Assembly (NCBI RefSeq): GCF_024281235.1
Contig: NZ_JAHWXY010000003.1
Coordinates: 186,001-250,000 of the forward strand
DNA length: 64,000 bases
From: Shinella daejeonensis
Lineage (GTDB): Bacteria > Pseudomonadota > Alphaproteobacteria > Rhizobiales > Rhizobiaceae
Direction of reading: 5' to 3'
In this document: one piece after another, positions 5,557 through 16,210 of the stretch
Layout: each line of letters opens with the position of its first letter
How positions within the stretch are numbered: position 1 is the first letter of the stretch
Made by a program: the position numbers and the translations under genes
The notes under the pieces: model-generated
The model's database searches: none
What the model was told of the DNA's origin: nothing
Seen by the model: the letters and a program-made list of their open reading frames with translations, nothing else

Positions 5557-5571
5557 GTTCAATATTTGTTC
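5557..5571 (+). promoter_or_regulatory. LexA box upstream of dinB
   Basis: GTTCAATATTTGTTC fits the alphaproteobacterial LexA operator GTTC-N7-GTTC exactly. It ends five bases before the dinB start codon, and an additional GTTC occurs at 5549-5552. A TTGAGA/TTAGGT pair upstream would place the transcription start within the box, so repression by LexA is expected. Confidence 0.8.
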
Positions 5572-5576
5572 CGGCC

Positions 5577-6890
5577 ATGCGCAACGACGAAACGCGTCCT
5601 GACGGTTTTTGCCGCGACTGCCTGTCCGGGCAGGTTTCCGGCTTGCGCCGGTGTCGGGCGTGCGGCAGCCCGCGGCTGCTTTATCATGACGAACTTCATG
5701 CGCTGACACTGGCCCATATCGATTGCGACGCCTTCTATGCCGCCATCGAGAAGCGCGACAATCCGGAACTGGCCGACAAGCCGGTGATCATCGGCGGCGG
5801 CAAGCGCGGCGTGGTTTCCACGGCCTGCTACGTGGCGCGCATTCAGGGCGTACGTTCCGCCATGCCGATGTTCAAGGCGCTGGAAGCCTGCCCCGACGCC
5901 ATCGTCATCAAGCCCAACATGGAAAAATACGCGCGCGTCGGGCGCGAGATACGAACGATGATGCAGGAACTGACACCGCTGGTCCAACCGCTGTCCATCG
6001 ACGAAGCCTTTCTGGAACTAAGGGGAACGGAACGCCTGCACCACGATCCGCCGGCCCGCGTCCTTGCCCGCTTCGCCGTGCGCGTGGAGCAGGAGATCGG
6101 CATAACGATCTCCATCGGCCTCTCCTATTGCAAGTTCCTCGCCAAGGTGGCGTCGGACCTGCGCAAACCGCGCGGTTTTTCCGTGATCGGCCGGGCCGAG
6201 GCGCTCGCCTTTCTCCAGGACAAGTCCGTGCGGATGATCTGGGGGGTCGGAAAGGCCTTTGCCGAGACGCTGGAGCGCGATGGCATCCGCACCATCGGGC
6301 AATTGCAGACCATGGAGGAAACGGACCTGATGCGCCGCTACGGCTCCATGGGCAAGCGGCTCTATCATCTGTCGCGCGGCGATGACGACCGTGCGGTCCA
6401 TCCCGATGAACCGGCAAAGAGCGTTTCGGCCGAAATAACCTTCCTCGAGGATATCTCCAGCCAGGACGAACTGGTGATCCATCTGCGGCGGCTGAGCGAG
6501 AAGGTGGCGCTACGGCTGCGCAAGTCCGGCATCGCCGGCCAGACCGTGGTGCTGAAGCTGAAAACAGCCGACTTCCGGACCCGGACCCGCAACCGCAAGC
6601 TCGAAGATCCGACCATGCTCGCCGACCGCATCTTCCGGACCGGCGTGGAACTCCTCAGCCGGGAAACGGACGGCACCCGCTTCCGCCTGCTGGGCATCGG
6701 CGTCTCGGATCTGGCCGATCCGGCCCGCGCCGATCCTCCGGATCTCGTCGACCCGCAGGCGGCGCGCCGGGCGGCGGCCGAAGCCGCAGTAAATACGCTG
6801 CGCGACAAATTCGGCAAGGCGAGCGTGGAAACCGGCTATACATTCGGCAAACGCCCTCCTCCGCAGATATCCACCCTCACGAAAAAGTGA
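5577..6890 (+). CDS. dinB: DNA polymerase IV with N-terminal zinc ribbon
   Basis: A 437-aa Y-family polymerase for error-prone translesion synthesis. After a 40-residue N-terminal extension holding two CxxC pairs (C12/C15 and C26/C29), the polymerase core begins at [19 protein letters not shown] with catalytic Asp49. The second acidic motif is [10 protein letters not shown], about residue 146. The helix-hairpin-helix region ([17 protein letters not shown]) and the little-finger domain follow. The zinc-ribbon extension is absent from E. coli DinB. The ATG at 5577 sits just downstream of a perfect LexA box, so the gene is probably SOS-induced with a very short or absent leader. A downstream start would remove the ribbon but is not supported by any better ribosome binding site. 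Confidence 0.93.
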
Positions 6891-8332: not shown

Positions 8333-11830
<3,498 letters not shown>

Positions 11831-11957
11831 TTTTCTTCCTTCCGACACGAAGGGGAAGCTTAAGCGGATTCGGTACGGCAAAGTCCAGCGGTCAGGCGCG
11901 GTTGACCCCGATTTCCACGCCGCAAGCCGGTAAGCGCGTTGCGGCGCACACGGCGGC

Positions 11958-12044
11958 TCACATCCCGAAGATGATCATGGAAAAGCTGGCGACGAACATG
12001 GCCATGGAGGTGAAGGCTGCAAGATCACGAAGAAAATCGGTCAT
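11958..12044 (-). CDS. 28-aa single-pass membrane microprotein under LexA control (SidA-like arrangement)
   Basis: A 28-codon ORF, too short for usual gene calling. It begins MTDFLRDLAAF and ends in a hydrophobic, methionine-rich helix (MAMFVASFSMIIFGM). A short charged cytoplasmic N-terminus followed by one membrane helix is the likely topology. AGGGAG lies six bases before the ATG. A TTGACG-17-CATACT promoter at 12073-12101 is overlapped by two LexA boxes, so it should be induced by DNA damage. The only precedent I know for this layout is SidA of Caulobacter, a 29-aa SOS-induced inner-membrane protein that blocks division through FtsW/FtsN. I claim similar size, topology and control, not sequence homology. 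It lies between lolD and dnaE. Confidence 0.75.
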   Translation of the reverse strand: MTDFLRDLAAFTSMAMFVASFSMIIFGM

Positions 12045-12066
12045 TAACGGCTCCCTTTCTATCTAT

Positions 12067-12101
12067 GTTCTCAGTATGTTCTATTTTTGTTCGTTCGTCA
12101 A
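12067..12101 (-). promoter_or_regulatory. SOS promoter with two overlapping LexA boxes
   Basis: On the minus strand TTGACG (12096-12101) and CATACT (12073-12078) are exactly 17 bp apart. Read on the plus strand, GTTC occurs at 12067, 12078, 12089 and 12093. This gives two exact GTTC-N7-GTTC operators (12067-12081 and 12078-12092) that share one half-site and cover the -10 box and most of the spacer. The expected transcription start is near 12066, about 22 nt before the 28-codon ORF. Confidence 0.85.
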
Positions 12102-12396: not shown

Positions 12397-13083
12397 TTAC
12401 GGAAGTTCGCGGATGGAGCCGTCCTCGAGCGTGACCCGGCGGTCCATCAGCCTGGCCAGTTCGTGGTTATGGGTGGCGATGAGGGCGGCAAGGCCCGATT
12501 GCCGCGCCAGCGCCTCCAGTGCCTCGAAGACATAGCCGGCCGTTTCCGGGTCGAGGTTGCCCGTCGGCTCGTCGGCCAGCAGCACCAGCGGCGCATTGGC
12601 GACGGCGCGGGCGATGGCGACGCGTTGCTGCTCGCCGCCCGAAAGCTCCGCCGGACGGTGGCTCCCGCGATGACCGATCCGCATGTAATCGAGAAGCTGG
12701 GCCGCGCGCTCCTCGGCCTCGGCCCGGGAAAGGCCCGCGATGAGCTGCGGCATCATGATGTTCTCAAGCGCGCTGAATTCCGGCAGCAGATGATGGAACT
12801 GATACACGAAACCGATCTCGCCGCGGCGGATCGCCGTTCGCTCGTCATCGCCAAGCCCGGCGCATGGATGACCGTTGACCAGCACCTCGCCGGCATCCGG
12901 CTTCTCCAGGAGACCGGCGATGTGCAGCAGGGTCGACTTGCCGGTGCCCGATGGCGCGACGAGCGCCACGGTCTCGCCGCTGCGCAGCGTGAAGTCCGCT
13001 CCCTTGAGAATGGTGAGAAGCGTCTCGCCCTGGCCGTAATGCCGTTCGATGCCGGTAAGCTGCAATGCCACGCGCGCGTTCAT
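12397..13083 (-). CDS. lolD: Lipoprotein-releasing ABC transporter, ATPase
   Basis: A 228-aa ABC ATPase of the LolD/MacB group. Walker A is APSGTGKST (about residues 43-51), the signature is [14 protein letters not shown], and Walker B is [13 protein letters not shown], followed by the switch His in ATHN. With the LolC/E permease it extracts outer-membrane lipoproteins from the inner membrane and passes them to LolA. The start at MNARVALQL is supported by spacing of 13 bp from the lolC stop; the frame extends upstream into lolC. It is third in a proS-lolC-lolD unit. Confidence 0.93.
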
Positions 13084-13096
13084 TCGATGAGGGTTC

Positions 13097-14404
13097 CTAT
13101 TCGTAGCGAAGCGCCTGGACGGGATCGAGCTTGGACGCGCGCCAGGCGGGGAAGATCGTCGCAAGGAAGGAAAGCGCCAGCGCCATCAGGACGACGGAGA
13201 GCGTCTCTCCGGCATTCATGTCGGCGGGAAGCTGGCTCAGGAAATAGAGTTCCGGATTGAACAGCGTCGTTCCGGAAATCCAGGAGAAGAACTGGCGGAT
13301 CGACTCGACATTGAGGCAGACGACGACGCCGAGCAGCACGCCGGCGAAGGTGCCGACCGTGCCGATGGCCGCTCCCGTCATGAAGAAGATACGCATGATC
13401 GAACCGGAGGTCGCCCCCATGGTGCGCAGGATGGCGATATCGCTGCCCTTGTCCTTCACCAGCATGATGAGGCCGGAAATGATGTTCAGCGCCGCCACCA
13501 GCACGATCAGCGTCAGGATCATGAACATGACGTTCCGCTCCACCTCCAGCGCCGAGAAGAAGGTGCGGTTGCGCTGGCGCCAGTCGGTGATGAAGACCTG
13601 CCGCTCCGCCGCGGCCTCGACCGGCTGGCGCAACTGATCGACGGCGTCGGGATTATCGATGAAAAGCTCGATCGACTGCACGACGCCTTCGCTGTTGAAA
13701 TAGAGCTGCGCCTCCTCCAGCGGCATATAGATGATCGAGGCGTCATATTCCGACATGCCGATCTCGAAGATCGCCGAGACCGTATAGGTCTTCACGCGCG
13801 GATTGACCCCGAGCGGCGTCACATCGCCGTCGGGTGCGACCAGCGTGATCTGCCCGCCGGCGCCAAGCCCCAGCGCCTCGGCCATGCGCGCGCCGATGGC
13901 GACGCCGGATCCGGCGGCAAAGCCGACGAGATCGCCGTCCTTGATATGGTCCGAGACGGTCTTCAGGCGGGCCAGATCGTCAGGCCGGATGCCGCGCACC
14001 AGCGCGCCGGTCCCCGCCCCCGCCGTTCCGGAGGCAAGCGTCTGCCCCTCGACCAGCGGGATGGCCAGCCTGACGCCGGCCACCGCCGACAGCCGATCGG
14101 CAAGCGCCGTGTAATCGTTGAGCGGGCTGTCGATAGGCTGCACGATCATATGGCCGTTGATGCCGAGGATGCGCGAGATCAATTCGGTCCGGAAGCCGTT
14201 CATCACCGCCATGACGATGATGAGCGTCGCCACGCCCAGCATGATGCCGATGAAGGAAAAGCCGGCGATCACCGAAATGAACGCCTCCTTGCGCCGCGAG
14301 CGCAGGTAGCGCCAGGCCACCATGCGCTCGAAAGCGGAAAACGGGCGGCTTTTCGCGAAACCCTGCGAAGAGGCTGCGGTATCACCGCTCGCTGCGTCAG
14401 CCAT
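13097..14404 (-). CDS. lolC: Lipoprotein-releasing ABC transporter permease (LolC/LolE family)
   Basis: A 435-aa permease. One membrane helix follows the conserved N-terminal motif [20 protein letters not shown], then a large periplasmic domain of about 230 residues, then three C-terminal helices ([19 protein letters not shown] onward), the MacB/LolCE FtsX-like layout. Many alphaproteobacteria have a single permease that serves as a homodimer instead of the LolC-LolE pair; only one is present here. The start at MADAASGD was chosen over an upstream in-frame start, which lies close to or within the end of proS. It functions with the LolD encoded next to it. Confidence 0.92.
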
Positions 14405-16059: not shown

Positions 16060-16210
16060 CACAAAATAGGCGGGATGGACAAATTTCCGCCAATTTCGCG
16101 GTCAAGTCTTGGGAGGATTGGATCTTTGGCGCGCTTCAGTCGCCGCCGCCGGTAACGGATATGGATCACGCGATACCTTAAAACAAGGCCTTTACGCCTT
16201 GTTTTTTTTT
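16060..16210 (+). ncRNA. Candidate short transcript between proS and DUF1467, possibly with a 26-aa ORF
   Basis: The 696-bp gap 15768-16463 holds no annotated gene. A GTGACA-16-CTAGTT promoter-like pair lies at 16026-16053, and a strong plus-strand intrinsic terminator at 16180-16210. Between them is a 26-codon ORF (16075-16155; MDKFPPISRSSLGRIGSL, then an arginine-rich end). Its ribosome binding site is weak (AGGCGGG directly before ATG). An internal TTG at 16129 has a good GGAGGA eight bases upstream and would give a nine-residue arginine-rich peptide. The stretch could therefore be a small RNA, a microprotein mRNA, or a leader whose gene has been lost. No family is recognised. Confidence 0.35.
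16180..16210 (+). terminator. Rho-independent terminator with no assigned gene
   Basis: AAAACAAGGC / CTTTAC loop / GCCTTGTTTT is a perfect 10-bp stem running into a nine-T tract. The stem also gives a weaker terminator on the minus strand (TTTTAAGG). No plus-strand gene lies upstream for more than 7 kb, since proS is on the other strand. Confidence 0.7.

Follow-up and report, generated by a model that had tools for sequence, protein, structure and literature searches.

The 64-kb stretch of Shinella daejeonensis DNA analyzed here (hereafter, the window) carries a conserved 28-codon gene with an SOS-type promoter upstream of dnaE. Its sequence and setting make it very probably an orthologue of sidA, and the range of SidA-type genes is unexpectedly wide. 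SidA is described as a 29-residue inner-membrane SOS division inhibitor acting on FtsW in Caulobacter (PMC4211646). As a whole, we consider it highly likely that the window encodes a sidA orthologue that is repressed by LexA, induced by DNA damage and able to arrest the divisome.

The ORF and its promoter in the window

The 28-codon ORF, the AGGGAG, the TTGACG-17-CATACT promoter and the two LexA operators sharing a half-site that a preliminary description had placed here are all present, at the following positions:

8333–11881, minus strand: dnaE (DNA polymerase III alpha), the downstream neighbor; named by reading, and in relatives by tblastn
11958–12044, minus strand: 28-codon ORF, probable sidA orthologue; peptide MTDFLRDLAAFTSMAMFVASFSMIIFGM
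12051–12056, minus strand: AGGGAG, Shine-Dalgarno-like, six bases 5′ of the ATG at 12044
12067–12081, minus strand: LexA operator 2, GAACATACTGAGAAC, covering the −10 element
12073–12078, minus strand: −10 element CATACT, separated from the −35 element by a 17-bp spacer
12078–12092, minus strand: LexA operator 1, GAACAAAAATAGAAC, kept in relatives
12096–12101, minus strand: −35 element TTGACG; many relatives have a TTGACA-like element instead
12397–13164, minus strand: lolD (lipoprotein-release ABC ATPase), the upstream neighbor; named by reading, and in relatives by tblastn

The two operators overlap by one common half-site (12081–12078), and operator 2 is exact in few relatives only, for example at locus L027. 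An element resembling AGGGAG is also found in the loci of relatives. The probable ATG of dnaE lies at 11830, 127 bp past the ORF stop. The peptide consists of a short polar N-terminus followed by one hydrophobic stretch, with a mean hydropathy of 2.07 over positions 8–26 (45 training rows, window included), and the protein is predicted to reside in the membrane as a single helix. Searches of Pfam and NCBIfam returned no model matching the 28-residue peptide.

Conservation and selection on the reading frame

Used as a query, the peptide matched 40 of 101 genomes at E ≤ 1. All 21 genomes of the window's own genus matched with E ≤ 4.8e-7, and all 21 loci are 28 codons long. Among the 30 loci fetched, dnaE lies inside the 3-kb stretch in every case and lolD in 25. 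Across 25 loci of equal length, divergence at the three codon positions was 0.158/0.018/0.268, compared with 0.697 in the 60 bp past the stop. The median dN/dS (NG86) for these loci was 0.22, and values below 0.5 were obtained for 273 of the 296 usable pairs (of 300), the pairs not being independent of one another. These values mark the 28-codon frame as a genuine gene under purifying selection. Conservation of the ORF together with its LexA boxes between lolD and dnaE had been proposed as a check on the preliminary description; run on the 30 loci, with the box in 27 of 28 and the dN/dS given above, it bore the claim out.

A LexA operator at a conserved position

The window contains three exact GTTC-N7-GTTC matches against 1.90 expected, and 31 of 100 shuffles reached three or more, so at the scale of 64 kb the motif by itself carries no significance; what is significant is the conserved position of the operator. 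The whole genome holds 150 matches in 4,657,968 bp, a count from which about 0.3% of 110-bp stretches would carry an exact box by chance. We counted boxes at recognized loci, that is, the 28 of 30 (own genus and relatives) that exceed a fixed score cut-off, all of them 28 codons long. An exact box lies within 110 bp of the ORF start in 27 of these 28, and in 25 of the 27 it begins 46–51 bp 5′ of the ATG. The two loci below the cut-off, L028 and L029, also carry an exact box.

Other genes of the same genome provide a reference. An exact GAAC-N7-GAAC lies upstream of lexA, recA is preceded by a one-mismatch form (GTTC-N7-GTTT), and a further example is found within the window:

5557–5571: GTTCAATATTTGTTC, an exact box of the LexA type that ends five bases 5′ of the DinB-like ATG
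5577–6890, plus strand: DinB-like Y-family polymerase ORF, named by reading

As far as its sequence goes, the operator at the 28-codon ORF fits these putative SOS genes. LexA regulons have been predicted for several Rhizobiaceae and Brucellaceae (PMC3323433), so the operator described here may already be published for some species; the available excerpt of that work does not mention the microprotein.

The ORF persists away from dnaE

In Sinorhizobium meliloti, sORF25 is a Ribo-seq-translated small ORF in the 5′-UTR of dnaE1 that is missing from two annotations (PMC10117765). The window ORF likewise precedes dnaE, and the two are probably the same gene, judged by position only. The claim that the gene had been hidden from annotation thus gains indirect support, from the absence of a Pfam or NCBIfam match and from the omission of sORF25. 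Possible upstream-ORF or leader roles are suggested in general for 5′-UTR sORFs such as sORF25, in a main text that leaves SOS unmentioned (PMC10117765). On such a reading, translation of the ORF would itself tune dnaE, which agrees with its placement on the same strand 127 bp ahead of the probable dnaE start and with the location of sORF25. The distribution of the ORF argues otherwise. Thirty dnaE loci of the family were analyzed, and the ORF is absent from 21. We inspected 18 of those 21 genomes at lolD (leaving out G026, G046 and G223), and 12 of the 18, including G307, have both the ORF and an exact LexA box no more than 2 kb downstream of lolD, in a stretch without dnaE; near lolD in the other six, no ORF was found. 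The linkage in cis that a leader peptide requires is broken in those 12 genomes, and the ORF is therefore not merely a dnaE leader. Constraint acts at the amino-acid level through the whole frame, and the ORF resembles SidA, whose function is at the protein level. A leader peptide is accordingly very unlikely.

The same observations bear on the idea of a chance ORF overlying a LexA site whose only target is dnaE. In favor of this idea, SOS regulation of dnaE has been cited for C. crescentus (PMC3323433). Purifying selection, the fixed length and the persistence of the frame away from dnaE leave it with a negligible probability.

Relationship to Caulobacter SidA

Caulobacteraceae genomes were located with a CtrA query, and their DnaE loci were then fetched. 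One DnaE query yielded 80 named records, mostly of Caulobacter and Phenylobacterium, with some titled only Alphaproteobacteria or Proteobacteria. A 29-codon-type ORF precedes dnaE in 78 of the 80, according to a motif that, like the one used for the recount, was written after the family had been seen; an exact box lies within 450 bp in 53. The recount with the second motif found the ORF in 79 of the named records (72 with 29 codons, six with 30 and one with 40) and in 27 of the 30 records of a second set; an exact box is no more than 110 bp away in 53/80 and 20/30, respectively. By the recount motif, no such ORF precedes dnaE at L165, L173 and L178 of the second set (n = 30). The fixed score cut-off drops many Caulobacteraceae rows, passing 53/80 of the named records and 14/30 of the second set.

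The genome of C. vibrioides DSM 9893 has lolD followed by a nucleoside hydrolase gene on the other strand, then the 29-codon ORF and dnaE:

L193 1727–2827, minus strand: nucleoside hydrolase ORF between lolD and the 29-codon ORF, read from its DTDxxxDD start

We take sidA to be CC1927 in the CC numbering. The CC and CCNA numberings run roughly parallel there, as shown by recN, which is given as both CC1983 and CCNA_02062. Published tags are CCNA_02004 for sidA (PMC10769358), CCNA_02005 for an inosine-uridine nucleoside hydrolase (PMC3667746) and CC1926 for dnaE (PMC1839093). A corrected sidA start has also been reported (PMC4117421), and it agrees with an alternative 40-codon reading of the C. 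vibrioides ORF. Neighbors, length and locus tags, rather than annotated sequence, thus strongly indicate that the Caulobacteraceae 29-codon ORF is sidA.

Compared with C. crescentus SidA (CCNA_02004), the window ORF occupies the same type of locus, before dnaE and downstream of lolD, sidA being identified by its neighbors. At the sequence level, it encodes 28 rather than about 29 residues, has one hydrophobic stretch, carries a LexA operator at its promoter and shares a gapless N-terminal pattern; rows of the family, the order and Caulobacteraceae align without internal gaps. An hhalign comparison of the family with Caulobacteraceae gave E 6.7e-7 and a probability of 92 over 19 columns, an E-value that is optimistic for 28-residue membrane peptides. 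As a control, a position matrix was built from 45 rows, all of them from the window's order; anchored at the Met, it misses shifted 30-codon forms. All 19 Caulobacteraceae test sequences, which were the rows already chosen for the hhalign comparison, scored at least −3.4, whereas the best of 668 decoys (hydrophobic Met-started sequences from frames of more than 45 codons) scored −4.5. The short-frame sequences scoring between −4 and 25 were all 29- or 34-codon ORFs from loci fetched at dnaE.

The two groups differ in the C-terminal half (FVWMMC in Caulobacteraceae, FVASFS in the window), so contacts with partners may differ, and in the nucleoside hydrolase gene that C. vibrioides has between lolD and the ORF. 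The preliminary description had called the ORF a functional counterpart of SidA. This is supported and can be raised to probable orthology, because locus, length, operator and sequence pattern agree.

Distribution in the family, order and class

Outside the genus, the ORF is present in 27 of 40 sampled genera of the family. No copy was found in the other 13; for six of these the only search was the genome-wide one with the peptide, and seven were inspected at dnaE, five of them at lolD as well. A 14-row profile matched 122 of 397 genomes of the order at E ≤ 0.5, many of them weakly. All 29 loci inspected from this search contain dnaE (L032 being a repeat of L022); 26 of the 29 exceed the score cut-off, and for 19 of these an exact box is no more than 110 bp away. 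ORF length among the 26 is 28 codons in all eight loci of the window's family and 32 codons in 16 of the 18 from other families. Inspection of ten further weak matches revealed a family-like ORF in eight, seven of them with an exact box, and none at L297 and L298.

Genome G036 has, besides its 28-codon copy at dnaE (L268), a 32-codon family-like ORF at L296 1501–1599 (MRDLLHDIASFVAVSTFIATFAVWAGYLAEKV), in a stretch where neither lolD nor dnaE nor an exact box was found; it is a possible paralogue of the dnaE-linked copy.

At the level of the class, the same profile matched 70 of 385 genomes at E ≤ 0.5. Of these matches, 29 loci outside the window's genome were inspected; not one was at dnaE, so we took them as chance. 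The class was surveyed by eye in 60 dnaE-upstream regions hand-picked from the best-scoring listed places, four of which end at contig ends. In 11 of the 60, nine of them outside the window's order, an exact box is followed by a short hydrophobic ORF, and the remaining 49 have no clear candidate. These 11 regions are candidates that suggest a class-wide gene. In the broadest reading, SidA would be an ancestral alphaproteobacterial SOS checkpoint, encoded beside lolD in a LexA-controlled sidA-dnaE unit that couples division arrest with the supply of replicative polymerase, and would remain under LexA control where dnaE has moved away. We lean towards this reading with reserve, having graded it down because of the 49 regions without a candidate.

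Proposed mechanism and comparison with known inhibitors

In an undamaged cell, LexA bound to GTTC-N7-GTTC over the promoter would keep the ORF off, as the operator implies. Once DNA damage has removed LexA, the 28-residue protein would be made and would enter the inner membrane as a single helix. There it would act on the late divisome (FtsW/FtsN), as reported for Caulobacter SidA, and by favoring an inactive state of FtsW/FtsI/FtsN would make septation pause. The next gene on that strand, dnaE, may be co-induced. For the window's organism, induction in the SOS response and an FtsW/FtsN-mediated block of division are thus predictions from operator and orthology. The function of SidA has been tested only in Caulobacter, and the window's ORF is known from sequence. 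The division block, the interaction with FtsW and FtsN and suppression by ftsW and ftsI alleles are reported only for Caulobacter (PMC4211646). A recent model, though not a high-confidence one, places SidA on FtsW TM7 (PMC13396833).

The changed C-terminal half, set against the retained N-terminal pattern, raises the prospect of a SidA orthologue that has changed its partner, for instance to a different factor of the divisome or of polar growth. FtsW, FtsI and FtsN are common to both groups, which makes an unchanged target the simpler assumption. Unipolar growth of rhizobiales (PMC9022086) favors a shifted partner, and on balance we consider it quite unlikely.

Another alternative is an SOS peptide that disturbs the membrane and is not a specific divisome inhibitor. 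TisB, an SOS-controlled single-helix peptide of E. coli, would be one model, and DinQ of the same species, an SOS-regulated toxic single-transmembrane peptide (PMC3567139), another. The window ORF shares with them its size class, its one hydrophobic stretch and its LexA operator; by description, they differ as toxic membrane peptides. Its probable SidA orthology, the absence of an Rfam family at the locus and a chromosomal position kept over many genera make such a peptide unlikely, bearing in mind that our search for an antisense RNA antitoxin, which found no Rfam family at the ORF locus, would miss an undescribed antisense RNA.

Other division inhibitors were compared by description with the SidA orthologue proposed here. 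YneA, SosA and ChiZ come from other phyla and are longer proteins than the product of the window ORF. As proposed here for that product, they are described as membrane proteins that are induced by damage and inhibit late division (PMC13396833). Caulobacter DidA is likewise a membrane division inhibitor and acts on FtsN, but it is SOS-independent and driven by DriD (PMC4211646), which sets it apart.

Implications and nearby RNAs

To our knowledge, no SOS division inhibitor is known from Rhizobiales. Among the matches listed in open-licence literature, we found no rhizobial SidA and no Rhizobiales SOS division inhibitor. With a specific 28-residue candidate, a damage-linked pause in division becomes directly testable in rhizobia and their kin. 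The family also makes natural SidA variants available for mapping contacts with FtsW, and a likely function can be put forward for sORF25 of S. meliloti.

Two Rfam matches to small RNAs lie elsewhere in the window. One, at 2729–2835 on the minus strand, is to EcpR1, an sRNA reported to modulate cell cycle progression in S. meliloti (PMC4414408); the other, at 16061–16210 on the plus strand, is to the alphaproteobacterial sRNA ar9.
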